NCBI RefSeq assembly: GCF_003862495.1 | Contig: NZ_RRCH01000012.1 | Location: forward strand, 1-64,000 | Origin: Halocatena pleomorpha | Lineage (GTDB): Archaea > Halobacteriota > Halobacteria > Halobacteriales > Haloarculaceae | DNA: 64,000 nt | Direction: 5' to 3' | In this document: one piece after another, positions 2,558 to 35,516 of the stretch | Layout of the letters: every line of letters begins with the position of its first letter | Position numbering within the stretch: position 1 is the stretch's first letter | Translations under genes and position numbers: made by a program | The notes under the pieces: generated by a model | What the model was told of the DNA's origin: nothing | Seen by the model: only the letters and a program-made list of their open reading frames with translations | Database searches by the model: none

Positions 2558-2662
2558 GGCAGAGTGACCTCCTACGCTACGCTACTGCACGTACGCGATC
2601 AACAGGACATCTGGCAAGACGGCAACTCGACACTCGATATCGAGGAGGTCAAGCTCGACTAA
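2558..2662 (+). pseudogene. Relic of a C-terminal carbohydrate-binding-like domain tail, in frame after the GH5 stop
   Basis: Reading on from the TGA at 2555-2557 in the same frame gives 34 open codons to a TAA at 2660-2662. The last residues (NSTLDIEEVKLD) match the characteristic end of the neighbouring domain (SSTLQIEEIALV in the GH12, NSAIEIEELWLE in this GH5). I read this as a fossil of a second domain copy left by recombination between repeats. Alternatively the GH5 once ended at 2662 and a nearer stop was acquired. It has no start codon or RBS of its own. Confidence 0.6.
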
Positions 2663-2741
2663 CACACGACCATTCCAACCCACTGATCGACCTGTCCGAT
2701 CGACGGACGGTGAAACGGTGGGTTCTGTGAACACGAAAAAC

Positions 2742-4142
2742 ATGACACAAGACAATCACAATACTGACACGACGGACGACCGATCGACCGACGGCACTCG
2801 GTCCTCGTGGCACCGCCTATCGGGCGTGTTCGAGGACAGTTCTCGACGAGAGTTCCTGAGAGCCGGTGCCGCTATTGGCGCTGGTGGTCTCGCACTCGGG
2901 CTTGGAAACACCGCGACGGCTGCGAAGGTTGAGGAGATATGCAACTCGGATTACGGCACGATTGACGTTGCCGACGGCTTTACACTGATGGACAACCGAT
3001 GGGGGAATCAGAACGCTCACCAGTGTATCTGGTACAATGACGACGGGAGCTATGGATACGATTTTGACGCCTCGAACACGGGTGGCGGAATCAACTACCC
3101 CGAGGTGTTCATCGGGACGCGTCCGTGGGGTGCCAGCACAGGCGTTGTCGAGTTCCCCATTCAGCGCCACGACGTTGATGAGTTCGTGATGGAGGTGGAT
3201 GCCGACCTCGATATCTCCGGCGGTGAGTGGGACTGGGCCGAGGAGTGGTGGCTAATGGAGCAACCCCCCACCCAACAGCCCGAGACTCACCAGTACGAAG
3301 TCATGTTGCTTCTCGACTGGGGTGGCGGCCACGACCACGGTGCGGTACAAGATCCCAGCGCGTGGACCGATCGATTCGGCAACACGATCGACCTTTGGAC
3401 CACCTACGACTCCGGCGGTACGGACGCCTATTTCTACATCTTCCGGATTCAGGGTGGTCACGACGGCGGGAAGATCGATATGGCGGAGATCGTTGAATAT
3501 CTCAGTAGCAACGAGGGCGTTAGAGGCGATCTGTGGCTTTCTGGCATCGAACTCGGGAACGAGTACTGGGCAGGTGCTGTCGGAGAAACCACGTACAACA
3601 CGTTCAACGTCACAATCAATGGCTCAACGTACACCAGTGGGACCGGTGACGGTGGCTCCCCGCCGACCGATACGCCGACGGACACGCCGACTGATACACC
3701 GGGCGACGGATTGGTGATCAACGATTACGACGGCGATCCGTCGTGGTCGAGCAACACGAACGACCTGGGTCAGTGGTGCGGCGCTGGGTCGTTCGCCAAC
3801 GGGAGCGGCACCGTCAGCAACGGGGCGCTCGTCCTGGAATACGACAACGGCGGGTGGTACCAAGAGCAGCTCAACCAGTCGGTCACCGACTACTCGACGC
3901 TGGTCTTGCGCGTGAGCGGTGCCAGCGGTGGCGAAGAGAGCGACATCACCGTCGAGATGGGTGGCGTGAGTGCTCCGTTGGCCGACGTGACGAGCGATTC
4001 CATCGCCACGAATATGAGCGACGTGGCGATCGATCTTCAAGCCGCGGGCGTCGATCGCTCCTCGTCCTCGCTGTCGCTCCGACTCAACTTCTGGGGCGGT
4101 GGCAGTTCCACACTCCAGATCGAGGAAATCGCCCTAGTGTAA
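2742..4142 (+). CDS. Tat-exported GH12 endoglucanase/xyloglucanase-type enzyme with C-terminal carbohydrate-binding-like domain
   Basis: A 466-residue secreted beta-glucanase of family GH12. The ATG at 2742 is preferred because sibling genes also begin MT(H/Q); an in-frame GTG at 2718 would add 8 residues. The Tat motif SRREFLR lies at residues 34-40. The GH12 fold is suggested by NRWG near the mature N-terminus, YEVMLLL with Glu186 as likely nucleophile, and GNEYW with Glu274 as likely acid/base. A threonine/proline linker (repeats of PTDT) leads to the INDYDG-type domain at about 324-466. The enzyme lies between two GH5 genes on the same strand, as expected for a glucan-degradation operon. 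Specificity (cellulose, xyloglucan or mixed-linkage glucan) cannot be read from sequence. Confidence 0.88.
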   Translation: MTQDNHNTDTTDDRSTDGTRSSWHRLSGVFEDSSRREFLRAGAAIGAGGLALGLGNTATAAKVEEICNSDYGTIDVADGFTLMDNRWGNQNAHQCIWYNDDGSYGYDFDASNTGGGINYPEVFIGTRPWGASTGVVEFPIQRHDVDEFVMEVDADLDISGGEWDWAEEWWLMEQPPTQQPETHQYEVMLLLDWGGGHDHGAVQDPSAWTDRFGNTIDLWTTYDSGGTDAYFYIFRIQGGHDGGKIDMAEIVEYLSSNEGVRGDLWLSGIELGNEYWAGAVGETTYNTFNVTINGSTYTSGTGDGGSPPTDTPTDTPTDTPGDGLVINDYDGDPSWSSNTNDLGQWCGAGSFANGSGTVSNGALVLEYDNGGWYQEQLNQSVTDYSTLVLRVSGASGGEESDITVEMGGVSAPLADVTSDSIATNMSDVAIDLQAAGVDRSSSSLSLRLNFWGGGSSTLQIEEIALV

Positions 4143-4169
4143 CTGCAACTCCAACGATAATTACTATAA

Positions 4170-5354
4170 ATGACACAAAACGAACGAGTGCACGGCAGCG
4201 ATACGACAATTCAGGGTAACGTTGTTTCCCGGCGTGACGTTTTAGGTGCGGCGGCTGCTGGTGCTGTGGCGTTCACCGCGCCCGGCGTCGTCGGCAGCGC
4301 GGCTGCAGGGATTCCGACGCCGTGGCTCCATCGAGACGGCAATCTGATCAAGGATCCCAGCGGCAACACAGTGATCCTTCGTGGGGTCAACGTTCCTGAT
4401 CCAAAGCGGATGGACACCAAAGCGTTCCGTCCGGATGCAGATGAAACGATCCAGCGGGTGACGAACGACAGTGATGACTGGTACGCCCGCGTCGTCCGGC
4501 TCCCGGTGCAGCCCGTCGACATCGGTGACCACAGTCCTGGCGGGATCCCGCCGGTGCCTGGCTTTACGAAGCGCCAACTGGAGCGCTACGTCAGCGAGCA
4601 TCTCCGTCCAGCGGTCGATGTCTGTGCCGAACAAGGGGTATACTGCATCGTCGATTATCACCGCCACCGTGGTCAAGACGATTCACACGCGTACACTAGT
4701 CAGGGAATCCACGACGAACTCACGATGTTCTGGGAGACGGTTGCTCCGGAGTTCGCTGCGGACTCACACGTCTTATTCGAGGTGTACAACGAACCGATCC
4801 ATCCGTTCCAAGGGCACTACGACCCGAACGTCGATGTCGATCCGACCGACGACGAAGCGATCGAAACGTGGAATACGTGGAAGGACGCGGCCCAGCCGTG
4901 GGTCGACACGATCCGTGCGAACGCACCGCAGAACGTGATCCTGATCGGCTCGCCACGCTGGTCTCAGTGGACCTATCAGGCACCCAGAAACGAATTCGAC
5001 GGCGACAACCTCGCGTACACGGGCCACGTGTACGCCCATCCGTCTCTCCGACCGCTCTCGACGTACTTCGGTGAACCCTCACAACACGTCCCGGTCTTCA
5101 TGACCGAATTCGGATGGGGCCCCTACGGCGCGGAGTGGCTGAAGGGGACCGCCGAAGTGGAAGGCGAGGAGTTCAAAGCGTTCTTCGAGAACTACGACGT
5201 TCACTGGCAGGTCTGGTGTTTCGACAGCAAGTGGTCGCCCGCAATGCTCGATCACGACTGGTCGGTCAACAGCTACGGCACCTTCTGGCAGGACGTTCTC
5301 GCACAGCGGCGTGGTTCTGATCTCCCTGCAACCGGAGCTACTGGATTCGAATAG
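4170..5354 (+). CDS. Tat-exported single-domain GH5 endoglucanase-type enzyme
   Basis: A 394-residue secreted GH5 that closely resembles the catalytic domain of the enzyme at 230-2557 (shared GNLIKDP, PVQPVDIGDHSPG, VDYHRHR and YNEP segments) but has no FN3 or binding domain. The Tat motif SRRDVLG begins near residue 20. Glu208 in VYNEP is the likely acid/base and Glu313 in MTEFGW the likely nucleophile. The gene starts 28 nt after the GH12 stop and ends 29 nt before the next GH5, so it is probably co-transcribed. Lacking a binding module, it may act on soluble or amorphous glucan. That is an inference. Confidence 0.92.
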   Translation: MTQNERVHGSDTTIQGNVVSRRDVLGAAAAGAVAFTAPGVVGSAAAGIPTPWLHRDGNLIKDPSGNTVILRGVNVPDPKRMDTKAFRPDADETIQRVTNDSDDWYARVVRLPVQPVDIGDHSPGGIPPVPGFTKRQLERYVSEHLRPAVDVCAEQGVYCIVDYHRHRGQDDSHAYTSQGIHDELTMFWETVAPEFAADSHVLFEVYNEPIHPFQGHYDPNVDVDPTDDEAIETWNTWKDAAQPWVDTIRANAPQNVILIGSPRWSQWTYQAPRNEFDGDNLAYTGHVYAHPSLRPLSTYFGEPSQHVPVFMTEFGWGPYGAEWLKGTAEVEGEEFKAFFENYDVHWQVWCFDSKWSPAMLDHDWSVNSYGTFWQDVLAQRRGSDLPATGATGFE

Positions 5355-5383
5355 CGCGACAACAACCCTTCACTCCGAAACCA

Positions 5384-6967
5384 ATGGCACGGAACGATAC
5401 ACCCGAACTGGAATCGAACACCGATCACCGATCCGACGGGACGACCCCTCGACGCAATACCGTCTCACCGACGCTCCGACGCCGAAGCGTCCTGCAAGCG
5501 CTGGGCACTGGCGTGGCGTTCGGATTGTTCGGCGTTGGGTCGACGAGCGGCGCACCGGCCAGCTTCGGTGATGGTGTGAATCTCCAACCCTCCTACTTCT
5601 GTGATGGTGATCAGAACTTAGGCTGGGGTCTAATGAACCAGTATCCGGACATCCAGACGGTGCGGATCGAGATCGAGCCGTTCTCGTTTAACGAGATCGC
5701 AACGACGCGAGATGATGCGAAACGCTGGATCGACGAGGCTGCCAGTCACGGATACGACGTGATCGCGAGCTACCACCACTATCCGGACAACGGGTCGGCT
5801 GACTCACAGGCGCTACAGTCTGCAGCCGATTGGTGGGTGGAACAGTACGACTACCTCACACAAGACTCGTCGATCACTATCAACATGATGAACGAGTGGG
5901 GTGACCACACCGTCACCGCTGGTCAGTACGCATCGGCGTACAACGACGCGATCAGTACGGTGCGCGATGGCACTGACTACACCGGTCCGATCGTCTGTGA
6001 CGCACCCGGCTGGGGACAGGAAACCCACCGGCTCGCTGACGCCGTCTCACAGATCGACGACGACGATCTCATTCTTTCGGTGCACGTCTATCCGAGCGGG
6101 TGGAACCAGGAGGCAAACGAGGCGCTCCAGCCCGCACACCTGGATATCGTGGACGAAACTGGCTATCCCTGTATGATCGGTGAATTCGGGAACTGGGCGG
6201 CAAACCCCAGCGGGGCCGACTGGTCAGCGATCGTCGATCACGCCAAATCGCTGGGCTGGCCGGTCATCGGCTGGGCATGGAATGGCGACGGATCGGACGA
6301 CCCGATGAACATGTCCTCTCCGTATTGGGGCAATGACTGTGGTGCCACTTCCTACTCGGCGTCGTCGTATTTCAACGTCGTGTACGACAAGCTCGGAAGC
6401 GGTGGCAGCGGTGATGACACGACAGCACCGAGTTCGCCGTCAAACCTGTCTGTCACGGGGACGACGAACTCCTCGGTGTCGCTCGGCTGGGATGGCGCTA
6501 CCGATACTGGTGGTTCGGGGCTGAGCCAGTACGTCATCACCGTGGACGGCAGCCGTGATCACACCGTCTCGGCTGGCACGACGCGCACGACAGTATCCGG
6601 ACTGTCCGCAGGAACGAGCTACGAGATCGGTGTGCGTGCGGTCGACGGCGCAGGCAACGAATCGACGGCGGCCACCGTCACAGCGACGACCGCCGAGAAC
6701 GGTGACTCGGCGGAGCTACTGGCGGAGATCGCTTCAAGCACGACGACGGCGGCGGTGGACGAACGGATCACGTTCCAAGTTGAGGACACGTCGGGCAGCG
6801 GGCAGTGGATCACCGCGTTGGATTGGGCGTTCGGTGACGGCACCACCGCCACGGGATGGTGGAACGAACACGCGTACGACGCGGCTGGCACCTACACCGT
6901 TGCGTTGACCGCGACCGACAACGAAGACGATACGACCACGCACGAAGTCACCATCACTGTCTCATGA
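5384..6967 (+). CDS. Tat-exported GH5 beta-mannanase-type enzyme with FN3 and PKD domains
   Basis: A 527-residue secreted enzyme with a GH5 domain unlike the other three here. NMMNEWG supplies Glu171 as likely acid/base and MIGEFGNWA supplies Glu267 as likely nucleophile. The nearby IGWAWNGDG resembles the WSW(S/K)GN segment of GH5 subfamily 8 mannanases. The Tat signal is LRRRSVL at about 31-37. After a Gly/Ser linker an FN3 domain (about 346-432) and a PKD domain (about 437-527, ending ITVS) follow. Mannan as substrate is inferred from the motif resemblance; glucan remains possible. The FN3-PKD block is almost duplicated in the next gene. Confidence 0.87.
   Translation: MARNDTPELESNTDHRSDGTTPRRNTVSPTLRRRSVLQALGTGVAFGLFGVGSTSGAPASFGDGVNLQPSYFCDGDQNLGWGLMNQYPDIQTVRIEIEPFSFNEIATTRDDAKRWIDEAASHGYDVIASYHHYPDNGSADSQALQSAADWWVEQYDYLTQDSSITINMMNEWGDHTVTAGQYASAYNDAISTVRDGTDYTGPIVCDAPGWGQETHRLADAVSQIDDDDLILSVHVYPSGWNQEANEALQPAHLDIVDETGYPCMIGEFGNWAANPSGADWSAIVDHAKSLGWPVIGWAWNGDGSDDPMNMSSPYWGNDCGATSYSASSYFNVVYDKLGSGGSGDDTTAPSSPSNLSVTGTTNSSVSLGWDGATDTGGSGLSQYVITVDGSRDHTVSAGTTRTTVSGLSAGTSYEIGVRAVDGAGNESTAATVTATTAENGDSAELLAEIASSTTTAAVDERITFQVEDTSGSGQWITALDWAFGDGTTATGWWNEHAYDAAGTYTVALTATDNEDDTTTHEVTITVS
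6413..6967 (+). repeat. FN3-PKD coding repeat, copy 1
   Basis: This 555-bp block aligns without gaps to 8154-8708. The encoded 184 residues differ at about 17 positions by my count. It points to recent duplication or gene conversion between neighbouring glycoside hydrolase genes. Confidence 0.9.
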
Positions 6968-21637: not shown

Positions 21638-21799
21638 GCAGTGACAACACTCCTTCTCTATTTCGACGGTTTCGTCACCGACCTTACGGGTGACGACCCC
21701 ACACCGAGTTGACTGTTCAGCCGTTTTCATGATTCAACGAGTCGATTGACGCGTTTATGCCCTCATTGATTATCTGTGGGTGGCCCGAAACGGAACTGT

Positions 21800-23944
21800 A
21801 TGCCCACCTTTTCGAACCGAACTGTTTTTGGGATACTCTCCGTACTGATCTCGTATCTGCTGCTCGATGCCGTTTTGGGTGGTGTATTACCAGGGAGTCC
21901 CCTGCTACGGTCTCTTTTCGGGTTTGTTCTCCTCACAGTAGCACCGGGATATTTGTTCGTCATGTTGCTGGGGATCCGGGGTCGACCACCGGGCCGAATC
22001 CTTCTCTACTCGGTCGGCCTCAGTCTGTTCGTCGTGGTTGTCCTTTCAGCCTTACTCAACAGTCTGTTATCACTGTTCTCGTTCGCTCGCCCGCTCTCTT
22101 CAGTGAGTCTGACAGTCGCCGTGTTGGTGCTCGTACTCAGTATGGCTGCGGTGTGCTACGTCGCTGGTTCGACTCTTCGATCACCGTTGCGGTCGTTGTC
22201 ACTGTCACATTGTGATCAAATCGCTGTCGTGGTCGTGAGCCTTCTGCCGATGGTTTCGATCCTTCTTACCGTGTTCTCTACGATTCCACGGTTCGATCAG
22301 TTGCAGCTTGTATTGTTATGTCTCCTCTCGACCGTACCACTGGTGCTTCAGCAGTGGGACAGATCGCCTGCTCTCTCCCCGTACGCGATCTGGGCGGTTT
22401 CAGCGGCTGTGCTGTTCCAGATGACGCTCGTTTCAGGCCACCTCTGGGGCTTCGATATCCACTTCGAGTATGCTACAGCTGCGAACATCCTCCACGATGG
22501 CTACTGGGATCCGGGAGCGAGCAACCCGAGCAACTCGTTGGCGACGGTCACACTGCTGGCGGCCGTCTACTCGATGGTGACCGGCTTGGATCTCGTCTGG
22601 GTGTACAAGTTCGTCTATCCAGTACTCGTTTCGCTCCTCCCGCTTGGCGTCTGGTACGTCGTACGGAGCACCTTTGAGGATCGATCGATCGCTACGCTTG
22701 CCCCGTTCGCCCTCGTGTTCTACTACGGATTTTTCAAAGACATGCCTGATAAACAACTGGTCGCTGGACTGTTCGCCGTCTTCCTACTCATCGTGTTTCT
22801 CGATACGGAACTATCCCCCACCCAGCGGTGGACTGTCGGTCTCGCGTTCGCCGTCGCGCTCACGCTCTCCCACTACGGTGTCAGTCTGTTGTTCACCGCG
22901 TTTCTCGGGAGTGCCCTTCTGGCTCGCTACGCAGTGCAAATGCTGCCGACGGCTGATGTCGACGCTCGCCTTACTCGCCCCGCGCTCGTTGGATTTCTCG
23001 GCGTATTCTGGGTCGTGTGGTATCTGTTTACCGCTTCCGGCGTGAACTTCTACCGCGTCGTTGGGGTCGGCTACGAACTCCTCTCGACGCTTCCGTTCCC
23101 GATGGCAGAACGGAGTGGGGCGGCTTATGCGACTGCGGGGTTCACGTCGGTGTACTGGATTATTTATAAATTCCTGCACATCGTTCTGGCCGGGCTCATC
23201 GGGATCGGAATGTTTGACGCCTTGTCTGCTGTCGTTACCGATCGTGACGGCCCTTCTTCCGTCGAGTACTCCCTGTTTTCGGCAGGCGTACTCGCTTTCC
23301 TCGGCGCGTCGGTGGTTTTCACATTCGGAATGGGCTTCGACAGAACGTTCCAAATCGCCCTGTTCGTGGTGGCTCCGTTTGCGATCACCGGCGCGCGAAC
23401 CGTCATCTCGGTCGTCTCACGAGGTGCTGTTCATCTGCCACTAACTGGTCTCCGCGCGCACATTGCTGCCGTTCCAGTCGACAGTCTCTTTGCAGTGTTT
23501 CTTGCCGTGTTGTTCCTGTTCAGTTCGGGCACCGTTTTCGCGGTTGCGGGCGAGCAGCTCCCACCGTACAACATCAACGTTGACGAGGACGCTGGCTGGC
23601 CAGTGTACTCTCAAAGCGAAGTCGACGCCACGCGATGGTTGGCGACACACACCGATACCAACGATACGATCGCGGTTTACAACGAGTGGGACCAGATCAA
23701 AAGCCGAGACGGTTTGCTTGTGAGTGAAGTCGTTCCCGCGGACAAACTAGAACCGATCTGGCTGAACCGTACGACGCTGAATCGGAGCGGATACGTTTAC
23801 GTGAGTCACAAACCCATGTTGCAGTTGGGCAGCGATACGGAGTATATCGACGCCCGTAATACACCGTTCTATCGGGATACGCTCTCGACTGCTGAGACGG
23901 TGTACACCGACCGGAACGTGACGATCTACTACGTTGAAGCGTGA
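21800..23944 (+). CDS. Large polytopic membrane protein (DUF2206-like), probable glycan-assembly component
   Basis: About 714 residues with more than a dozen TM helices and a soluble C-terminal tail of about 130 residues. An in-frame GTG at 21776 would add 8 residues; the ATG at 21800 is preferred. The segment SGHLWGFDIHFEY in the first large loop, with clustered Asp/His/Glu, resembles the first external loop of GT-C-like membrane glycosyltransferases. The overall layout fits archaeal DUF2206 proteins found in exopolysaccharide loci. I infer transfer or polymerisation of lipid-linked sugars, without proof. It shares direction with the upstream deacetylase (162-nt gap). Confidence 0.75.
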   Translation: MPTFSNRTVFGILSVLISYLLLDAVLGGVLPGSPLLRSLFGFVLLTVAPGYLFVMLLGIRGRPPGRILLYSVGLSLFVVVVLSALLNSLLSLFSFARPLSSVSLTVAVLVLVLSMAAVCYVAGSTLRSPLRSLSLSHCDQIAVVVVSLLPMVSILLTVFSTIPRFDQLQLVLLCLLSTVPLVLQQWDRSPALSPYAIWAVSAAVLFQMTLVSGHLWGFDIHFEYATAANILHDGYWDPGASNPSNSLATVTLLAAVYSMVTGLDLVWVYKFVYPVLVSLLPLGVWYVVRSTFEDRSIATLAPFALVFYYGFFKDMPDKQLVAGLFAVFLLIVFLDTELSPTQRWTVGLAFAVALTLSHYGVSLLFTAFLGSALLARYAVQMLPTADVDARLTRPALVGFLGVFWVVWYLFTASGVNFYRVVGVGYELLSTLPFPMAERSGAAYATAGFTSVYWIIYKFLHIVLAGLIGIGMFDALSAVVTDRDGPSSVEYSLFSAGVLAFLGASVVFTFGMGFDRTFQIALFVVAPFAITGARTVISVVSRGAVHLPLTGLRAHIAAVPVDSLFAVFLAVLFLFSSGTVFAVAGEQLPPYNINVDEDAGWPVYSQSEVDATRWLATHTDTNDTIAVYNEWDQIKSRDGLLVSEVVPADKLEPIWLNRTTLNRSGYVYVSHKPMLQLGSDTEYIDARNTPFYRDTLSTAETVYTDRNVTIYYVEA

Positions 23945-25383: not shown

Positions 25384-26379
25384 TCAGTAGGCGATTATCT
25401 CGTATGCTTTCTGTACGATGTCCATCAATTTCCCCGATTTGATGAGGTAATGTGGAACCGGTTCCGCGTCGTACTTGCTTTTGTAGTGAGCGAGCGGTTC
25501 GAGATTCGCGTTGCCAAGGTCGTACCGATCGATCGACCCCAGTTCCGGGTCGGTGAGTATGTCCTCAATGATTCGCCAGTGCAACAGTTCGTTGGCGTTC
25601 CCGTTTCGTTCGGTGCGTGTTCCGCCCTGAAAGAAATATCCTTTATCGTTTGAGTACACAACCGTGATACCACTGAGGAACGCTCCGGCGGCCGTTTCTG
25701 CGACGTAGACGCGAATGCGATCCCCGAGCGTCTCTACGAGATCACGGGTGTACTCCCACGACACGGGATAGTTGTCTCCCTGTTCATTCCGACGAGTTCT
25801 ATGAGCGTCGTAAACGGCGCGTGCGTCCTCGATACCGCCTTGTGAAACGGTGATCCCCGCCTCCTCAGCGTTGTGGACTCCACGCCGGGCTTCCCGACTG
25901 AACGACTGTAGAACCCGCTTTGGGGTCGTCGATCGTAAAGCGAGTTGGTAGGTAAAGCGTGACTCGACATCGAAACCGGCCCAGAGATAGGGTCGTGGGT
26001 CGGTGTACGTAGTGCTACAGGACACCCCGAACAGCGTACACGGGTCGTGGGCTGCCACGGTTTCGAGTATCGCCTGCGTGAACTCTTTGTTTACTATCTC
26101 TCGTTTGCGTTGTTTCGGACTCGTCGGCATCAGTATCGGTCCCATCTGTGGAATGCCGAATCCGGGTGGTGGAGAGATGATTGCCGTCGCGAACAACTCT
26201 GTTCGAACGACAGCAGGCAACAATCCGACCAACTGTTGGCCCTTGTATCCGCCGTACAGACACACATCTTTCGCGTGCCTATCGAGGACTCGAAGTGTTT
26301 CGGGGGTGTGAGACCACTCGAAACCGGTGGCAGGAAGCGCCTTCCCCCAGTCGGAGAACGTGAGTGTTTCGATGTGCAT
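25384..26379 (-). CDS. FemAB-like GNAT-fold transferase, copy 1
   Basis: A 331-residue protein of the FemAB/GNAT type. It shows FSREARRGVHNAEEAGITVS, YVAETAAGAFLSG, YFFQGGTRTERNGNANELLHWRIIED and a terminal YKSKYDAEPVPHY, all typical of FemAB-like proteins in polysaccharide loci. Bacterial FemX/MurM use aminoacyl-tRNA to add amino acids to a glycopeptide; other relatives have unknown donors. A second member (28667-29698) lies 2.3 kb away. It is on the opposite strand from the core operon and 101 nt upstream of the beta-helix gene. Confidence 0.82.
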   Translation of the reverse strand: MHIETLTFSDWGKALPATGFEWSHTPETLRVLDRHAKDVCLYGGYKGQQLVGLLPAVVRTELFATAIISPPPGFGIPQMGPILMPTSPKQRKREIVNKEFTQAILETVAAHDPCTLFGVSCSTTYTDPRPYLWAGFDVESRFTYQLALRSTTPKRVLQSFSREARRGVHNAEEAGITVSQGGIEDARAVYDAHRTRRNEQGDNYPVSWEYTRDLVETLGDRIRVYVAETAAGAFLSGITVVYSNDKGYFFQGGTRTERNGNANELLHWRIIEDILTDPELGSIDRYDLGNANLEPLAHYKSKYDAEPVPHYLIKSGKLMDIVQKAYEIIAY

Positions 26380-26709: not shown

Positions 26710-27819
26710 ATGACAGAAGGAACGGATAATACAGCGTGCGGTACTTCTTCTGATAAGCGGACAGGAGTGATCGAAACCACTATCGAGGATGGCGTCGCTG
26801 GACCACCAGGCAATATCACTACAAACAGGAACGCGGGTCACGAACACATCCCGAGGCAGCAGTTCGAATTAGAGATTTCGGAGTCGATCTGTTCCGTTCT
26901 CGTAGCAATTCCTGCGTACAATGAAGCAGCGACCATCGGTGACGTCGTCCAGACTGCTAGTGAGTACGCTGATTATGTGCTCGTTATCGACGACGGAAGT
27001 GAGGACGATACGGCCGTTCGGGCGACAGCAGTTGGTGGTGCTGTCATCAAACACCGGCAGAACCGAGGCTACGGAGCCGCCCTGAAGACGGCGTTTGAGG
27101 TCGCCTCCCGGTACAACGCTCACCACCTCGTTGTCCTCGACGGCGATGGACAGCACGACGCCGCGGACGTTCCTCGGTTGGTGGCCGCCCAAGAGCGTAC
27201 CGGCGCACACCTCGTCATCGGTAGCCGGTTCATCGAGGGGGCCACGTCGAACGCCCCGTTGTACCGCTGGATCGGTCTCAAAACAATCAACGGACTGACC
27301 AACTTGAGTCTTGGTGTCGTACGAGCTGCCTCACGGGTGAGTGACACGCAGAGTGGGTTTCGCGCGTACGACCAGACAGCGATTGAGACGCTCGCTGCAG
27401 ACAGAAGCATTGGGAACTGGATGGACGCAAGCACGGATATCCTCTATCACGCCCATCATCACAGCTACTCCATTGAAGAGGTCCCTATCACAGTGACGTA
27501 CGATGTGGCGAACGCGAGCACCCGAGCACCTTTGTCTCATGGCGTCGTCCTCATGCGGAACATCCTGAAAACGATTGAGCGCGAGCGCCCCCTGACAGCG
27601 TTGGCTGTGCCGGGCTTTGGACTCACGTTCGGCGGAATGGGCGTCGGATATATGTCTCTAGATAATTATATACAATCAGGGACGTTTCCAGTTGGTCTCG
27701 CGCTTACCGCTGCCGTTCTCATGCTCATCGGAACATTCGCTTGTTTCACCGCGATTGTGCTCCACGCGCTCAGTACTTACTTTGCGAACACGGGTATGGG
27801 GGACAGACGGATTCGATGA
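26710..27819 (+). CDS. Family 2 glycosyltransferase with C-terminal membrane segment
   Basis: A 369-residue GT-A enzyme. VLVAIPAYNEAATIG (about 63-77), VIDDGSEDD (92-100) and the metal-binding DGD of VLDGDGQHD (144-146) identify GT2. The later SGFRAYD and the overall order match dolichol-phosphate-mannose synthase-like enzymes. Two C-terminal TM helices (about 300-320 and 330-360) anchor it. A low-complexity N-terminal extension of about 55 residues is unusual. It probably charges a polyprenyl or dolichyl phosphate with a sugar. It starts a run of five overlapping genes; its TGA overlaps the next ATG (ATGA at 27816-27819). Confidence 0.92.
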   Translation: MTEGTDNTACGTSSDKRTGVIETTIEDGVAGPPGNITTNRNAGHEHIPRQQFELEISESICSVLVAIPAYNEAATIGDVVQTASEYADYVLVIDDGSEDDTAVRATAVGGAVIKHRQNRGYGAALKTAFEVASRYNAHHLVVLDGDGQHDAADVPRLVAAQERTGAHLVIGSRFIEGATSNAPLYRWIGLKTINGLTNLSLGVVRAASRVSDTQSGFRAYDQTAIETLAADRSIGNWMDASTDILYHAHHHSYSIEEVPITVTYDVANASTRAPLSHGVVLMRNILKTIERERPLTALAVPGFGLTFGGMGVGYMSLDNYIQSGTFPVGLALTAAVLMLIGTFACFTAIVLHALSTYFANTGMGDRRIR

Positions 27820-28670
27820 GCGTATCGAACGTCCTCTCGTTCGATCTTGAGCATTGGTATTCAGCCACCCTGCTCCGTGATTCTGTGTGTGATAAAGACA
27901 CACACATCGAAGAATCGGTAGACATCGTCCTTGATATCCTCGCTGACTATGATGTGACAGCGACGTTCTTCGTTGTCGGTGATGTCGCACGCCGATATCC
28001 GGAACTCGTTGCCAGCATTGCCGATGCCGGCCACGAGATCGGATCACACGGTGATACGCACCGACCACTGTTTGATCTCTCCCCGAAACAGTTCGCCGCG
28101 GAACTTGATCGCAGCACTCAGGCAATCCGCGATGCGGTTGGGTCGACACCGGTGGGTTTCCGTGCCCCGAATTTCTCCGTAACACCCCAGACACAGTGGG
28201 CGATCGAGGTGCTCGAAGCGGCCGGATATCGCTACGATTCGAGCGTGTTCCCGGTTCGAACGCCGATGTACGGCGTCTCCGGTGCACCTATCCGACCGTA
28301 CACTCTCGATCCGAATGCTCCCTTCGAAGAACGCGAAGGGGGTGGACAACTCACAGAGTTGCCACTTGCGGTGTTCCACCCCCGACTCAAACTGCCGGTG
28401 GCTGGCGGATTTTACGCTCGTCTGCTTCCTACGTGGCTGTTGAAACGAGGAGTACGCACCCTCAATGCGCACGGACTTCCAGCGACGATGTACTTTCATC
28501 CCTGGGAGTTCAATCCTGCTGTGAGAACGACAGCGGTCTCTGCCCACGAGCGCCTTATCAGCTTCCACGGTATTGACGGGCTGCAAACGAAACTTGCCAC
28601 GTTGCTCGATGCGTTCGCGTTTACGACGGCCGACGCCGTTGTCCAACGTGCTGACGGTGATGAACGATGA
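27816..28670 (+). CDS. Polysaccharide deacetylase with DUF3473-type C-terminus (XrtA-locus type)
   Basis: The start at 27816 is chosen because ATGA overlaps the GT2 stop and homology begins at once (MSVSNVLSFDLEHW). NodB motifs are FDLEHW (Asp10) and SHGDTH (His78, His82), plus FRAPNFSV. The C-terminal part contains TMYFHPWEFNP, the hallmark of DUF3473 deacetylases found beside exosortase/EPS genes in bacteria. About 284 residues, apparently cytoplasmic because there is no signal peptide. It probably deacetylates a lipid-linked sugar or nascent polymer. The next gene again overlaps by ATGA. Confidence 0.92.
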   Translation: MSVSNVLSFDLEHWYSATLLRDSVCDKDTHIEESVDIVLDILADYDVTATFFVVGDVARRYPELVASIADAGHEIGSHGDTHRPLFDLSPKQFAAELDRSTQAIRDAVGSTPVGFRAPNFSVTPQTQWAIEVLEAAGYRYDSSVFPVRTPMYGVSGAPIRPYTLDPNAPFEEREGGGQLTELPLAVFHPRLKLPVAGGFYARLLPTWLLKRGVRTLNAHGLPATMYFHPWEFNPAVRTTAVSAHERLISFHGIDGLQTKLATLLDAFAFTTADAVVQRADGDER

Positions 28671-29698
28671 CTGAGACGAGTACCCTCACAGTGCGATCGG
28701 TTTGTCCCGATCGCACCCCCGAGTGGCAAACCTTCGTTGAGACCCATCCTGATGCAACGGTGTTTCACACCGCAGAATGGTTACACGCTATTGAAACGGT
28801 GTTCGGATACGAACCCCGCCACGTACTTCTCACTGACGGCGGAACGGTTCGTGCGCTCGTGCCAGGCTTCGTCGTGTTCGAGGGCTTCGGTTGGAGTGTG
28901 CTCAATCCCTTCTGTGAATACGGCTTTCCGCTGATCGGGGAGGGCACAATGGACGCGGCAGTGCTCTCTGCGCTTCAACGCACCGACGACACACGCGTTG
29001 TCAAAGACGTTAGCTGGAGCGGTGTCAGCGGGTACACCACGACTGACTTCGGTGGCGTTCCGACCGGCTCGTCGATCCGTCTGTCGATCGACCGATCATT
29101 CACGGTGCTCTGGGAGACGGTTTTCGACAAGGATGTTCGCCGCTGTGTCCGGACCGCACGCGATCACGGTGTCAGCGTGACCGACGGCACTGTTGATGAG
29201 TTCTACCCGCTCTATCTCGAAACGATGCGTCGGCTGGGCAGCCCACAGTTTCCAGAGCGGTTTTTCGCGTCGCTCGCAGACGCCTTCAGAGAGTCGGTTG
29301 CTATCTTACTCGCTCGACACGACGGCGAACCGATTGCAGGCGTGTTCTTGTTTGAGTGGGGTGATGCGACGATCATCTGGACGCCTGCCTCGAAGCGAAC
29401 CCACTGGGACTACCGGCCGAACCATCTGCTCTACCTCGAAGCGATCGAACGGGCCTGTCAGGCTAATCGGTCGGTCGTTGACTTTGGACGGTCACGTCGT
29501 GGCTCTAGCGTTCACGGGTTCAAAGCCCAGTTCGGTGGCGTCGGCTATCCGCTCATGAGCTTCGTCACGCCGCCACACCGGGCTGGTCGCGCTTCGCTCG
29601 ACGGCTACGGCCGACTGTCCGCGGTCACTCCGTATCTCGCACCGGTTATTACTAACCCTTCTGTAGGAACACGATTAAAACGATTTATCCATGAATAA
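28667..29698 (+). CDS. FemAB-like GNAT-fold transferase, copy 2
   Basis: A 343-residue protein matching FemAB-related proteins of EPS loci. Segments are VFHTAEWLHAIETVFGYEPRHVLL, the double-GNAT layout, IAGVFLFEWGD, RPNHLLYLEAIERA, VDFGRSRRGSSVHGFKAQFG and a basic C-terminus. In bacterial EPS loci such proteins accompany DUF3473 deacetylases, as here. Expected chemistry is transfer of an aminoacyl or acyl group to an amino sugar exposed by deacetylation. The donor is unknown. It overlaps the deacetylase by 4 nt and the next gene by 8 nt, so it is translationally coupled to both. Confidence 0.88.
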   Translation: MTETSTLTVRSVCPDRTPEWQTFVETHPDATVFHTAEWLHAIETVFGYEPRHVLLTDGGTVRALVPGFVVFEGFGWSVLNPFCEYGFPLIGEGTMDAAVLSALQRTDDTRVVKDVSWSGVSGYTTTDFGGVPTGSSIRLSIDRSFTVLWETVFDKDVRRCVRTARDHGVSVTDGTVDEFYPLYLETMRRLGSPQFPERFFASLADAFRESVAILLARHDGEPIAGVFLFEWGDATIIWTPASKRTHWDYRPNHLLYLEAIERACQANRSVVDFGRSRRGSSVHGFKAQFGGVGYPLMSFVTPPHRAGRASLDGYGRLSAVTPYLAPVITNPSVGTRLKRFIHE

Positions 29699-30353
29699 TA
29701 CGATACTCATTGGACTCGCTTCGGTTCTCGCTCTCGCTGGGACGACTGCCTACTGGTGGCGACGAGAGCGACTGGTCAAAGAGAGTTTGACTGCCAGCCG
29801 TGACTGGGAGACGAACACGAACGCCACGACTGCTGTTGCACACGAGGAACTGCGAGCGGCAACGAAAGCAGCCAAACGTCTCGATGCGCGCGTCACGGAT
29901 CTTCCAGAGCGGGTTATCGCGCTCGATGAGGAACGCCGAGGGCTGCGCCGCGAACTCGATGCTGTTCGGGAGCGGTGGGCTGACTCGTGGTTGTCACACG
30001 TCGATATGACAGCGGACGGCGACCCACCTGTTCGAGTGGTCGTGTTCGATTCTTGGGAAATCGATGACGTACGGGCGTTCGCAAAACGCGCCATGAACGA
30101 GGATGCGATCACCGTGGTTGTCGGTGGCGACAATTCGTTCGCTGTCGCTGTCGGTGACTCGTTGAGCGACGAGTGTAGCGCGACCGAGATCGCCGGCAGT
30201 ATCACCGAGTGCGCTGGCGGAGGTGCTGGTGGCACTGATCGATTGGCTATCGGCGGCGGAGCGACTGGTGCGCTCGATACCGCCTGTCGAAACGTCAAAC
30301 ACTCCCGCATACAGTCTGCTACGGTTTACCCCAACCCCGAAAACGATGCGTGA
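29691..30353 (+). CDS. Membrane-anchored coiled-coil plus DHHA1-like (alanyl-tRNA synthetase C-terminal type) protein
   Basis: A 220-residue protein. One N-terminal TM helix (about 5-23) ends in YWWRRER, predicting a cytoplasmic C-terminus. Residues about 45-105 form a charged coiled coil (RVTDLPERVIALDEERRG). Residues about 112-205 resemble DHHA1: VVVGGDNSFAVAVGDSL, then AGGGAGGTDRLAIGGG, close to the GGkGGGrpdlAqGGG signature of the tRNA-binding C-Ala domain. No aminoacylation or editing domain is present. It sits directly after a FemAB-like transferase, overlapping it by 8 nt, and overlaps the next gene by 8 nt. A tRNA-tethering role at the membrane is an inference; DHHA1 may have been reused for oligomerisation. 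Confidence 0.78.
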   Translation: MNNTILIGLASVLALAGTTAYWWRRERLVKESLTASRDWETNTNATTAVAHEELRAATKAAKRLDARVTDLPERVIALDEERRGLRRELDAVRERWADSWLSHVDMTADGDPPVRVVVFDSWEIDDVRAFAKRAMNEDAITVVVGGDNSFAVAVGDSLSDECSATEIAGSITECAGGGAGGTDRLAIGGGATGALDTACRNVKHSRIQSATVYPNPENDA

Positions 30354-31233
30354 CCGGCGAGCGGATTCGACTGACAGTGCAGCTCGGTCCGGGAATTCTT
30401 GTTCCCATGCTGTGAAACACCGTCTTCTGAACACCGCGTCTCGGCTCACTGACCGATACAACGCGCTGTCGCCTCTCAACGAACTCTATTGGGCGGTCGA
30501 CACCGCGTACTGTTTGACCCGGGTCGCACTCTGTGGTGGTCTGATGACCGTTCGGATCGGTGAGGAACCGATCCGGTTTGGGGTTTCTACGAGGTCAGAG
30601 TATCGCAGAACCACGGATCTGGGCGGTGAACGGCCCGTGATCGAGGCCCTGTTGGCGGAGCTACGCGGCTCCGAGACGGTTTGGGATATCGGTGCTTGTA
30701 TCGGAACGTACACGTGTCCTGTTGCAAGTACTCTCACCACTGGGAGCGTCGTCGGATTCGAACCCGAGTCCACGAATCGTTCCCGACTCCGGCGGAATCT
30801 CGAACGGAACACACTCACTACCGACTGGACCGTCTCTTCGATCGCGCTCTCAGACCACGATGGTGCGTGCACGCTCTCCTCGGAGTTCGTGGCAGCTGGA
30901 GCGGGCCATCACTATCTCTCCTCAGTACCGAACGGCTCGACTGTCGAAACGAAACGAGGTGATTCGCTGATCAAGGATGAAGGATACACGCCGCCTGATG
31001 TGATTAAAATTGACGTTCAGGGGGCGGAACTGTGCGTTTTACGAGGATTACGAGGAGTGCTCACAGAAGTTAGATCTCTCTACCTCGAAGTTCATCCGAG
31101 CAAGTGCCGCCGATACGGGACGACTGCCGAGGAAATCGAAGCGTTCCTTACCAAGGCCGGATTTTCGATCACTGTTCTCGGCCCACCTACGAACCGACGA
31201 TCTGGTGTTTATTTTGTTCGCGCCCAACGATGA
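30346..31233 (+). CDS. FkbM-family SAM-dependent methyltransferase
   Basis: The ATG at 30346 overlaps the previous stop by 8 nt and gives 295 residues. Upstream in-frame codons lie inside the preceding gene. The SAM-binding motif VWDIGACIGTYTCPVAS, the acidic VVGFEPES and the FkbM signature IKIDVQGAELCVLRGL are clear, followed by LYLEVHPSK. FkbM enzymes O-methylate sugars or lipids. In this operon the likely acceptor is the glycan being assembled. Confidence 0.92.
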   Translation: MRDRRADSTDSAARSGNSCSHAVKHRLLNTASRLTDRYNALSPLNELYWAVDTAYCLTRVALCGGLMTVRIGEEPIRFGVSTRSEYRRTTDLGGERPVIEALLAELRGSETVWDIGACIGTYTCPVASTLTTGSVVGFEPESTNRSRLRRNLERNTLTTDWTVSSIALSDHDGACTLSSEFVAAGAGHHYLSSVPNGSTVETKRGDSLIKDEGYTPPDVIKIDVQGAELCVLRGLRGVLTEVRSLYLEVHPSKCRRYGTTAEEIEAFLTKAGFSITVLGPPTNRRSGVYFVRAQR

Positions 31234-31345: not shown

Positions 31346-32599
31346 ATGAATGGGAAAGCTGAGAGCGATCGATCAGTCCTTCTTCCGGTCAACGATTCTG
31401 GGAGCAGCGTTTCGTGTGTCCGGTCGCTCAGCAAGCACGGCGTTCATACGGTGGTCGTTTCGGAGCATCCGGATAGACCAGTGTTTGCGTCGCGGTACTG
31501 TGATGAGGTGCTCACTGTTCCCTCGCCCTACGACGATCTGATCGCGTACAAGGACGCCCTGTTGTCGGCCGCAGAGCGCCCGGACGTGTACACGATCATT
31601 CCTCATCGAGAGATGGACAGCTACGTTCTTGGGAAGTACCGAGCCGAATTCGAAGAGCACGTCGTTCCGTTGTGGCCCTCTTTCGAGAACATCCGGACCG
31701 TCCACGATGGGCTTCGAATGGTTGAGGCTGCCCGAGAAGCGGAGATCCCGATTCCCGAAACGTGGTCGTTCGAGGACGTGGTGGACTGGGACCGCGAACT
31801 GATCGTTAAACCCCGGTATTCGATTCTGACGAGCGACTACGTGAATTCACTGTCTCCGAATGATTGTGAAGGAAAAATGGAGCCGATATACGTTCCGCCC
31901 GGCACTGAACCGGATTTGAAGACGATTCAAGCAGCGATGCACACAAGTGATTGCCACGCGCCGGATCACATCCCAATCGTTCAGGAACTCATTCGAGACA
32001 CACGCACTGAATACGGCTTTCGTGGACTCTGTACGGACGGCACGTCGGTGTTGACCTGCCAAAAGCGTCAAATAAGGGGAACGTCGTACGCTGGCGGTGC
32101 AAGCGCGTTTCGAAAGACCATGCACGATCCCCGTTTAGAAGAACTCGGACGGACGTTGCTTGAACACCTCGGATGGAACGGTCTCGCTTCGGTGCAGTTC
32201 CTTCGGGACCCCGACTCTGGTGAGTATAGATTCACTGAGATCAATCCCCGTGTGTGGGCGTCGATCGAAATGGATGTGCTCGCGGGTGCTGACTTTCCGT
32301 ACGCTCACTGGTTAGTGGCGACGGACAACGCGGATCGCATTGAGTCGGATTACGAATTGGACACCGGCAACCATCTTCTCATCGGTGAACTCCAGTATCT
32401 CTGGAGCGTTCTCCGGGACGAGTATCCGCTCATCGAACCGCCGCGATTCCGCCGTGCGTTGTGGGCGGTGGTTTCCTCGTGCTACGATCAACCGCATTTC
32501 GATTTCGTCCATCTCGACGATCCCGGTCCTTTCGTTCGCGGCGTCCTTAATCAGTTGTCGATCGGCGGTCGTCCAACAGGAGAAACCGCCGGAGAGTGA
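31346..32599 (+). CDS. ATP-grasp domain ligase of the glycan locus
   Basis: The ATG at 31346 opens a 417-residue protein that starts SVLLPVNDSGSSVSCVRSL, an N-terminal nucleotide-binding-like fold. Further in-frame coding extends upstream but overlaps the FkbM gene and lacks homology. ATP-grasp features are ELIVKPRYS, PIVQELIRD, and the metal-binding TEINPRVWASIEMDVLAGADFP region (Glu and Asn). It resembles carboxylate-amine ligases found in EPS loci. It follows FkbM by 112 AT-rich nt on the same strand. It could attach an amino acid or activate a carboxylate on the glycan. Confidence 0.85.
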   Translation: MNGKAESDRSVLLPVNDSGSSVSCVRSLSKHGVHTVVVSEHPDRPVFASRYCDEVLTVPSPYDDLIAYKDALLSAAERPDVYTIIPHREMDSYVLGKYRAEFEEHVVPLWPSFENIRTVHDGLRMVEAAREAEIPIPETWSFEDVVDWDRELIVKPRYSILTSDYVNSLSPNDCEGKMEPIYVPPGTEPDLKTIQAAMHTSDCHAPDHIPIVQELIRDTRTEYGFRGLCTDGTSVLTCQKRQIRGTSYAGGASAFRKTMHDPRLEELGRTLLEHLGWNGLASVQFLRDPDSGEYRFTEINPRVWASIEMDVLAGADFPYAHWLVATDNADRIESDYELDTGNHLLIGELQYLWSVLRDEYPLIEPPRFRRALWAVVSSCYDQPHFDFVHLDDPGPFVRGVLNQLSIGGRPTGETAGE

Positions 32600-32633: not shown

Positions 32634-34115
32634 TTACGCTTTTATTCTCAGCAGGCTTCGGAACACGTCTGCCGTCGCAATCCGGACCCGTTCGACCAAT
32701 AGGAGCACCGACACGGCGTAAATCGCTGCTCCGAGGCTGATAAATACGATCGTTTCGAACGGAAGAAGCGTTGATGAGACGGGAACGAGAAACCACAGAC
32801 AGGCCCCCATTATCAGGGCAGAGAGTACCTCTAAAAGGATCTCCTCTATCGGCACGGAAAACGTGAGTATCGAGCGAATGTAGCGGTACGACAACCCCGT
32901 TTTGAGAATCATCGCCCCGGTTGTCGCGAGCGCGGCACCGACCCATCCGATGGTCGTCACGGCCACGACGTTCAACACGAGGTTGACGAGAATGAACACG
33001 ACGTTCGTCCGGAACATCAGATCTGGTCGGTCAAGCGCGTTGATCACGTTTCCGAAAACCACTTCGTAGCTGTGAAACAGTCGTGAGAGGATCAAAACGG
33101 CAACGACTGTCGCCCCGACCCGATACTCCTCACCGAAGATGGCAAGGAGAGGTTCAGCAAAGATCATTCCTCCGACCACCCCCGGAATCGCAAGGATCCC
33201 GGTGTAGACAAGCGAGCGTTCGAGTAGGTCCGTTATCCGTTCGGTCTCGTCGTGGATCGAAAGCTCACTGATATTGGCGAACAACGTCGAGCTGATCGCT
33301 GAAGCGAGCAGAAAGAGCACACCGGTTATCTGCCAGCTGAGTTCGTACACTCCAATGAATGAGGATACGACGAACAATCCGAGAACGAGGGTGTCCGTCC
33401 AAATCCATGACTGGGTTGTCACTGCTCCTATCCAGCTGTATTTCGCAAACTCGAACAGGCTCCGAAAATGCTGCACTGTGGGCCGTTTCAATCGGAGTTC
33501 GAGCAACAACAGCCCAACCACGCTGGCGACCGTCTGTCCGATGACATACCCCAAGAGAACACCGAACAGTCCGTAACCAAACGAGACGAAGAGAATCCAC
33601 GACATCAACTGTCCGATGGCGTACACTGATTGGAGCAATCCTGCCTGAGCGACCTTCTTTTCACCGACCAATCCGGCTTCGATCGTCTTCCGAACGAGGA
33701 AGGTGAACGATCCGGCGAAGAGGAACGGCACCACCAACCCGCTTCCGATGTAGGTGGCGATCTGCTGGTGGTAGATTGTGACACTGATGCCAACGGGGAC
33801 AAATAAACCAAGGCGAACCACTAGCGTAGCAGTGAAAAATTCGTCCCGCTCAGTCCCTTCGCTGATCCGCTTCTGGGCAGCCTCGGAGATTCCGACGTTG
33901 GTCAGCAGATCGAGTACTCGAATGACAGCGATGAATAACGAATAGATTCCGAGCACTACCGGGCTTGTGGCCACCGCGAGATAGAAGATACCCAGAAAGA
34001 CCGCTACTGACAGGCCGATCCTCGTCACAAACGTTCCGAGCGACGACCGCAGTACGTTCGTATAATTCATTGTCGTTTGAGTACGGCTCCCAGACTGAGC
34101 GATGTCGTACGACAC
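32634..34115 (-). CDS. Wzx-type polysaccharide flippase (MOP superfamily)
   Basis: A 493-residue protein with about 12-14 TM helices. Its order (LGTFVTRIGLSVAVFLGIFYLA, SPVVLGIYSLF, NVGISEAAQKRISEG, FGEEYRVGATVVAVL, NALDRPDLMFRTNVVFI) matches oligosaccharide flippases. An alternative start is Met16 (MNYTNVLRSS). It should move lipid-linked oligosaccharides from the inner to the outer leaflet. It converges with the ATP-grasp gene and precedes no close partner on its strand; the GT4 gene lies 231 nt further on and is read the same way. Confidence 0.92.
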   Translation of the reverse strand: MSYDIAQSGSRTQTTMNYTNVLRSSLGTFVTRIGLSVAVFLGIFYLAVATSPVVLGIYSLFIAVIRVLDLLTNVGISEAAQKRISEGTERDEFFTATLVVRLGLFVPVGISVTIYHQQIATYIGSGLVVPFLFAGSFTFLVRKTIEAGLVGEKKVAQAGLLQSVYAIGQLMSWILFVSFGYGLFGVLLGYVIGQTVASVVGLLLLELRLKRPTVQHFRSLFEFAKYSWIGAVTTQSWIWTDTLVLGLFVVSSFIGVYELSWQITGVLFLLASAISSTLFANISELSIHDETERITDLLERSLVYTGILAIPGVVGGMIFAEPLLAIFGEEYRVGATVVAVLILSRLFHSYEVVFGNVINALDRPDLMFRTNVVFILVNLVLNVVAVTTIGWVGAALATTGAMILKTGLSYRYIRSILTFSVPIEEILLEVLSALIMGACLWFLVPVSSTLLPFETIVFISLGAAIYAVSVLLLVERVRIATADVFRSLLRIKA

Positions 34116-34346: not shown

Positions 34347-35516
34347 TTACTGTGTGTGATGTTCTTCGATTACGTGCTTATACACCTCGATATGGCGGTC
34401 GGCAATGTTCTCCCACGACAGTCGTTCGGCCTGTTGTGCGCTGTTGTGAGCCATCTCTGTCCGTCGCTCTTCGTTTTCGAGAAGTTCGGTGATGGCGTTT
34501 GCGAGTGCTGCCGGATCCGCAGGGGGAACGACCAACCCGGAATCTGATTCACCAACCTGCGTGGGAAAATCACCGATTGACGTGGTTACGACTGGTTTTC
34601 CGAAGGCGTAGGCTGTCGAGAGTGCACCGCTGTGACCCTTCGTGCCTTCTGTATGCGCTTCTCGATACGGTAACACGACAACCGCAGCCCGTGAAAAAAA
34701 TTCACCCACAGTTTCGTTCGGGACAAAGTAGTTGTGAACCTCAAAACAGTCCCTTTCGTTCTCGATGATCCGTTTTGTTTCCGATGCGAGCCGACCATCC
34801 CCAGCGATGAGGAGCGTCACGTCGGGAATCTCTCGTTTTACCATCCTGACCGCTTCGGCCAGCACGTCGAGACCTTTTGCTGGAAAAATGTTCCCGAAAA
34901 AGAGTATCGTTGTCGGGTTTTCAGGATGTTGCTGATAGTCATGCTCTGTAAAGAACTCATAGACGCCGTGTGGGATAACTTCGATGTCAAGTCGACTAAG
35001 CCGGCGGGCGAACGTCGTCCGTTGCTGGTCGCTGTGAACGATGATCTGATCGAGATCAGCGTCCGGAATTGCTGTGTTGAGGAGTTCTTCTGCTGCTCCC
35101 AAGGGATTCGACACCGAGGTTACCGGGGGCGGGACTTCGTGGTAAGTTACCACCGTCGGATAGGCTGCGTCTAATCGGTAGAGCTTCGTGAAGAACTTCA
35201 CCTGTGGGAAGAAATCTGTGGGATCGTGAATGATGTCTGGATCATACTCCCGAATCTGTTTTAGATTTCGGTAGGACGCTAACCCTCGCAGGTTGTTTGT
35301 AACTTCAAAGTCGAGTGAATACATATCAGGAATAGATATGTTCATACTTCTAAATATATTGACTGTTTCGACATCCTCCGAAAAGATGTCATCTGCTGTC
35401 GTCTCTGCTGGCTTAAACACCGTGACCTCGGCGTGACGGGCAACAGCGTTAGCGAGTTCTGCAGCGTAGTGTGGAAGTCCACCCTTGTTTTGAGAAAGCA
35501 CGTACGCGATCTTCAT
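34347..35516 (-). CDS. Family 4 glycosyltransferase
   Basis: A 389-residue GT-B enzyme. It starts MKIAYVLSQNKGGLPHYAAELA, contains VTYHEVPPPV, IPHGVYEFF, ILFFGNIFPAKGLDVLAEA and AGDGRLASE, and ends with the nucleotide-sugar-binding EGTKGHSGALSTAYAFGKPVV. It is a retaining transferase using a nucleotide sugar on the cytoplasmic face. It is on the same strand as the flippase and preceded by a good TATA box. Confidence 0.93.
   Translation of the reverse strand: MKIAYVLSQNKGGLPHYAAELANAVARHAEVTVFKPAETTADDIFSEDVETVNIFRSMNISIPDMYSLDFEVTNNLRGLASYRNLKQIREYDPDIIHDPTDFFPQVKFFTKLYRLDAAYPTVVTYHEVPPPVTSVSNPLGAAEELLNTAIPDADLDQIIVHSDQQRTTFARRLSRLDIEVIPHGVYEFFTEHDYQQHPENPTTILFFGNIFPAKGLDVLAEAVRMVKREIPDVTLLIAGDGRLASETKRIIENERDCFEVHNYFVPNETVGEFFSRAAVVVLPYREAHTEGTKGHSGALSTAYAFGKPVVTTSIGDFPTQVGESDSGLVVPPADPAALANAITELLENEERRTEMAHNSAQQAERLSWENIADRHIEVYKHVIEEHHTQ

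Follow-up and report, generated by a model that had tools for sequence, protein, structure and literature searches.

The polysaccharide cluster considered here lies in a 64,000-nucleotide stretch of the Halocatena pleomorpha genome (contig NZ_RRCH01000012.1, positions 1 to 64,000 of the forward strand; hereafter the window). It encodes a small membrane protein (29691-30353) that is a genuine stand-alone copy of C-Ala, the C-terminal module of alanyl-tRNA synthetase (AlaRS), set behind a membrane helix. Across haloarchaea this C-Ala protein is the obligate partner of a FemAB-like transferase encoded directly upstream. AlaRS binds tRNA chiefly through C-Ala (PMC10036535; PMC10485164), whose globular part grips the tRNA elbow and whose helical part dimerises (PMC10036535). 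We consider it probable that the membrane protein recruits aminoacyl-tRNA for the adjacent transferase, which would modify a surface glycan. The fuller proposal, an archaeal tRNA-dependent glycan aminoacylation in which the tethered C-Ala domain delivers aminoacyl-tRNA to a FemAB enzyme making N-aminoacyl amino sugars, we hold with about even confidence.

A stand-alone C-Ala domain behind a membrane helix

The 220-residue C-Ala protein has a single hydrophobic segment (residues ~4-20) followed by WRRER, then, in the AlphaFold2 model, helices at residues 46-63 and 68-101 and a mixed α/β domain. It lacks the catalytic and editing domains of AlaRS, its N-terminus being the membrane helix instead, so the protein is neither a whole AlaRS nor an AlaX. 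Pfam DHHA1 matches it only below threshold (18.9 against 25.9 bits), which is why a search of the organism's own genome with that family missed it; the NCBIfam model of archaeal AlaRS aligns to residues 47-192 (E = 8e-8), and a PDB search with the single sequence recovers the C-Ala domain of A. aeolicus (E = 1e-3). With a profile built from an alignment of nine orthologues (A1), the PDB matches are A. fulgidus 2ZVF (E = 1.7e-11), A. aeolicus 3G98 (9.6e-11) and 3WQY (2.4e-10).

The AlphaFold2 model built from A1 has a mean predicted local distance difference test (pLDDT) score of 74, with the globular part mostly at 80-92, and its top 17 Foldseek matches are all AlaRS C-Ala domains (for 3G98, a template-modelling (TM) score by target of 0.76 over 102 columns at 2.1 Å); RecJ DHHA1 domains rank below them. 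In the reverse direction, a profile built on 16 C-Ala domains from haloarchaeal AlaRS and AlaX gives all 20 orthologues 31.7-80.3 bits and 984 scored shuffles at most 8.5, ruling out chance similarity of a glycine-rich stretch. Matches to Pfam GCH_III and Arginase are weak and spurious. The membrane family forms a clade separate from both AlaRS and AlaX (support 89/94), and its members carry the glycine motif GGGxGG...A.GGG. The preliminary description of this DNA, made from the letters alone, had noticed one transmembrane helix, a coiled coil and a motif like the C-terminus of AlaRS, without a catalytic domain; the profile matches and the model bear this out, and the structural comparison with AlaRS C-Ala yields a match by profile, AlphaFold2 and Foldseek alike.

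By the positive-inside rule, the side of a membrane helix that is rich in Lys and Arg faces the cytoplasm. These residues lie mainly C-terminal to the helix in most of the 20 orthologues counted, and the C-Ala domain should therefore face the cytoplasm, where tRNA is.

Pairing of the C-Ala and FemAB genes in haloarchaea

Two independent surveys, one with a C-Ala profile and one with a FemAB profile, covered the same 391 haloarchaeal genomes. The C-Ala profile found a full-length member in 18 (E < 1e-33; the next matches, at ~1e-18, are AlaRS and AlaX) and the FemAB profile a close member in 18 (E ≤ 2.8e-73; next 6.4e-38). Seventeen genomes are common to the two lists, and in every one of them the two genes are adjacent. 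An eighteenth genome (G414), at first sight a carrier of FemAB only, was rejected as such: its contig terminates inside a C-Ala gene, ending 108 bases past the FemAB stop, and those bases encode MSNDRTTLTAIVSAIALLVTNLYWWRRERTVQESLTVS, a C-Ala start in the same overlap. The C-Ala gene thus lies directly downstream at all 18 specific FemAB loci, one of them at a contig end. The remaining C-Ala gene (G278, locus L077) has no close FemAB and stands 117 bp from a remote FemAB gene in divergent orientation, possibly a partner swap. The conserved FemAB neighbourhood that the preliminary description called for is therefore present at every specific locus, and a remote form of it at the last.

At nine orthologous loci compared gene by gene, FemAB directly precedes C-Ala in all nine while the remaining cluster differs in three (L040-L042), and the 8-nt overlap of the ATGAATAA type is retained in most of 20 loci. 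Named carriers of the pair include Halocatena marina, Actinarchaeum halophilum, Halococcus thailandensis, Halobacterium bonnevillei, Halalkalicoccus paucihalophilus and a Salinarchaeum metagenome-assembled genome, among others. As a control, the surroundings of sixteen more distant FemAB genes from haloarchaea were inspected; 1.5 kb to each side held no C-Ala gene. A contig scan with the C-Ala protein as sole query gave no match; one with an alignment of its FemAB partner did. No paper on the pairing came up in literature searches on DHHA1 together with FemAB or on FemAB in haloarchaea.

Some loci deserve separate mention. At L077 (9605-11488) the C-Ala gene is flanked by the remote FemAB gene and, on its other side, by a DegT aminotransferase gene. 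At L080 (8544-9718, genome G237) the FemAB gene is split into two frames, apparently by a frameshift, and its C-Ala neighbour is intact. A fusion of FemAB to a 670-residue domain at L075 was rejected, since the additional reading frame seems to be open by chance. Genomes G040 and G041 match at identical coordinates of equally long contigs (C1), and G040 is the larger and is 9% contaminated, so that one assembly probably contains the other.

The FemAB-like transferase

The best PDB matches of the FemAB profile are the aminoacyl-tRNA-dependent synthases Sbb17/Sba18 (E = 1.2e-7), whose entries are complexes with streptothrisamine, followed by FemX of Weissella (3e-6). The AlphaFold2 model (mean pLDDT 71, the C-terminus and some of the N-terminal half being weak) has the double GNAT fold of FemX at moderate model confidence: its top 11 Foldseek matches are all FemX, FemA or Sbb17/Sba18, with other GNAT proteins after them. 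In a HMMER alignment, F285-K286 fall on F304-K305 of FemX(Wv) and are invariant in all 15 orthologues compared; Lys305 is the catalytic residue of FemX (PMC12945691). An active site suited to aminoacyl donors, as foreseen in the preliminary description, agrees with these kin, although the lysine is not diagnostic, because it also occurs in a relative without a C-Ala partner (L132); the FK motif was accordingly rejected as proof of an aminoacyl-tRNA donor. The proposed chemistry has a precedent in Orf11, a FemX-like enzyme that glycylates streptothrisamine, an amino-sugar antibiotic precursor, from Gly-tRNA (PMC12945691).

Beyond haloarchaea, a relative of the FemAB gene lies directly beside an XrtA-type deacetylase gene in at least L130 and L132 of the methanogen loci. 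As these relatives lack a C-Ala gene, the partner looks like a haloarchaeal addition.

Proposed mechanism and objections to it

We propose that the domain derives from the C-Ala part of an AlaRS or AlaX protein, now separate and held at the cytoplasmic side of the membrane by its helix. There the protein would most likely dimerise through its helical part and grip the elbow of an aminoacyl-tRNA. By holding tRNA and transferase together at the membrane, it would act as a dock for charged tRNA, from which FemAB would transfer the aminoacyl residue to an amine of a surface glycan, either lipid-linked or still being made. Where the cluster is complete, the overlapping deacetylase probably exposes this acceptor amine. 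The product would be an amino sugar bearing an N-aminoacyl group, comparable to the N-glycyl-glucosamine of Halococcus walls; the orientation of the protein, its tRNA binding and its contact with the transferase, the aminoacyl donor, the amino-sugar acceptor and the amino acid used are inferences. The wall of Halococcus morrhuae holds N-glycyl-glucosamine, with glycine at 100 nmol per mg wall (PMC4187196 and references there); the sugar was reported from Halococcus walls in 1979. Four of the ten Halococcus genomes in our collection carry the pair, in a cluster much like that of the window. We treat the sugar as a lead; it is no evidence that the window's organism makes it.

A tRNA-dependent glycan aminoacylation had been suggested at the outset. 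It gains strong genomic support from the co-occurrence and adjacency of the C-Ala and FemAB genes and from the aminoacyl-tRNA dependence of FemAB kin: the identity of the C-Ala domain, its linkage to FemAB and the family of the transferase all held, while the mechanism keeps its conditional standing and the deacetylase link proved weaker than the C-Ala/FemAB link, because several loci (L041, L042, L075, L081) have the pair without an adjacent deacetylase orthologue.

That absence is one of several observations that weigh against the proposal. The tRNA binding and transferase activity of the pair are predictions from sequence, both models are moderate (mean pLDDT 74 and 71) and the FemAB model reaches a TM score of only ~0.48 with FemX. 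Methanogen FemAB relatives (L130-L134) have no C-Ala gene within the flanks, and one of them (L132) has the FK motif nonetheless. The four pair-bearing Halococcus genomes may or may not include H. morrhuae, because the 5S insertion occurs throughout the genus and does not single that species out. Certain C-Ala domains bind DNA instead of tRNA (PMC10485164), and by Foldseek related DHHA1 domains occur in RecJ nucleases. Within the glycine motif, the Gln of AQ-GG, kept in AlaRS and AlaX, is T, I or A in most orthologues of the membrane protein, and the GG-motif Lys that contacts G18 of the tRNA in C. elegans C-Ala (PMC10485164) has no counterpart. This last loss is a weak objection, because haloarchaeal AlaRS and AlaX likewise lack basic residues in the motif (AlaRS: GGGGGGPPDFAQGGG). 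Nor is acidity an objection: the C-Ala region has a net charge of -7, and in four haloarchaeal AlaRS/AlaX proteins the C-terminal 160 residues are more acidic still (-15 to -24).

Alternative explanations

The rival that survives best, though we think it unlikely, is that the C-Ala fold only anchors and dimerises FemAB, having lost tRNA binding, and that FemAB finds its own tRNA or works with a different donor. The conserved membrane helix and coil, the partly changed GG-motif residues and the methanogen relatives that manage without a C-Ala partner all fit such a scaffold; however, the globular domain and glycine motif are kept better than a mere anchor needs (G177, G180, G181, A186, G188 and G189 are invariant in the orthologue alignment), and the nearest solved FemAB relatives depend on aminoacyl-tRNA.

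We give little credence to the idea that FemAB N-acylates the deacetylated sugar from acyl-coenzyme A (CoA) or another acyl donor while the C-Ala protein regulates it in response to the supply of tRNA or amino acids. Many GNAT-fold enzymes do use acyl-CoA, and no tested donor was found for the FemAB proteins of XrtA clusters, but the CoA P-loop [QR]xxGx[GA] is not conserved among the 15 FemAB orthologues and there is no regulatory domain. Slightly less credible still is a C-Ala domain that binds a nucleotide-activated substrate (nucleotide or nucleotide-sugar) for the transferase, like DHHA1 of DHH phosphoesterases: the fold is common to RecJ and other DHH enzymes (Foldseek E from 2.5e-5), yet sequence and fold are closer to AlaRS C-Ala, and the coil before the domain is AlaRS-like. 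That the two genes stayed together simply as part of an inherited cluster, with no functional coupling, as the whole cluster shared by Halocatena and Halococcus might suggest, is very improbable, since the pair is retained amid differing neighbours in several families (L040, L041, L042, L075, L078-L081) and at L077 has been rearranged to a different FemAB.

Relation to known systems

The closest likeness is to the C-Ala domains of AlaRS from A. fulgidus (2ZVF/3WQY) and A. aeolicus (3G98), with which the protein shares the coil and globular fold, the glycine motif and similarity over residues 47-192; it differs in being a membrane protein, detached from catalytic and editing domains, paired with FemAB and mostly without the Gln of AQ-GG. 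The trans-editing AlaX type II proteins, also haloarchaeal, likewise carry C-Ala outside AlaRS, but they retain the editing domain and fall outside the membrane clade.

The transferase shares with FemABX enzymes and with Orf11/Sba18/Sbb17 the double GNAT fold, the position of the catalytic Lys and a likely amine acceptor, the Orf11-type enzymes acting on an amino sugar; unlike FemABX, it is archaeal, sits in polysaccharide clusters and has a constant C-Ala partner. We know of no FemABX enzyme with such a partner. The deacetylase and FemAB proteins match the XrtA/PEP-CTERM families TIGR03006 (6.3e-64) and TIGR03019 (3.5e-41), whose genes also occur together, but fall short of the curated cut-offs (215.7 against 276.2 bits and 141.3 against 260.35 bits). 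Arc1p is alike in helping other enzymes to use tRNA; Arc1p and Trbp111 are unrelated to C-Ala, soluble and without a glycan transferase partner. Both are trans-acting tRNA-binding proteins that bind the elbow (named in PMC10485164).

The surrounding cluster

The five genes and four overlaps given in the preliminary description all proved correct when the open reading frames were checked (Table 1). The deacetylase gene overlaps both its GT2 and its FemAB-like neighbour by ATGA, and the C-Ala and FkbM genes overlap by 8 nt. Only in Halocatena-type and Halococcus clusters is the pair joined by the FkbM and ATP-grasp genes.

Table 1. Features of the cluster and of the C-Ala protein, in window coordinates
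Feature	Position	Strand	Evidence or remark
GT2 glycosyltransferase	26710-27819	+	PF00535, E 2.5e-19; C-terminal hydrophobic segments; closest to polyprenyl/dolichyl-phosphate sugar synthases
Polysaccharide deacetylase, XrtA-associated type	27816-28670	+	Polysacc_deac_1, 6.4e-27, and DUF3473; motifs FDLEH, HGDTH, RAPN
FemAB-like transferase, conserved partner of the C-Ala protein	28667-29698	+	Acetyltransf_6, 2.1e-20; FemAB, 3.1e-8
Overlap of FemAB stop and C-Ala start, 8 nt, ATGAATAA	29691-29698	+	kept in most of 20 loci
Membrane-anchored stand-alone C-Ala protein	29691-30353	+	transmembrane helix, two-helix coil, globular DHHA1/C-Ala domain
N-terminal membrane helix and basic WRRER flank	29691-29770	+	hydropathy; Lys/Arg counts in 20 orthologues
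C-Ala glycine motif AGGGAGGTDRLAIGGG, residues 175-190, near the C-terminus	30213-30260	+	
FkbM-type methyltransferase	30346-31233	+	FkbM, 1.8e-16
ATP-grasp protein	31347-32599 (start approximate)	+	same clusters as FkbM
Wzx/MurJ-like flippase of the cluster	32634-34115	-	
GT4-type glycosyltransferase of the cluster	34347-35516	-	
Second, distinct FemAB/Acetyltransf_6 protein	25384-26379	-	in Halocatena-type clusters; without its own C-Ala partner

The second FemAB/Acetyltransf_6 protein, on the opposite strand, is kept in all Halocatena-type clusters. The ATP-grasp gene, which adjoins FkbM in Halocatena and Halococcus clusters and is present in two copies at L073, could add a further amino acid or carboxyl modification. 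A multi-spanning membrane protein of the DUF2206 family (21776-23944), conserved in both genera at the cluster edge, may polymerise or ligate glycans. Two GH5 cellulase-like proteins and an fn3/PKD protein are encoded close together at 230-6967, ahead of the polysaccharide cluster.

Significance

The glycan-aminoacylation idea is directly testable, because Halococcus genomes carry the pair and the H. morrhuae wall contains N-glycyl-glucosamine. If it is true, the pair would be a concrete genetic candidate for the origin of this wall sugar, whose biosynthesis we did not find in the literature. The transferase would also, to our knowledge, be without precedent among FemABX enzymes in having a subunit dedicated to tRNA recruitment, and the pathway would be the first of its kind in archaea. 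A synthetase appendage would have been recruited as a membrane dock for tRNA, and aminoacyl-tRNA would feed the synthesis of an archaeal surface polysaccharide, in parallel with its bacterial use in peptidoglycan bridges, lipids and some antibiotics.

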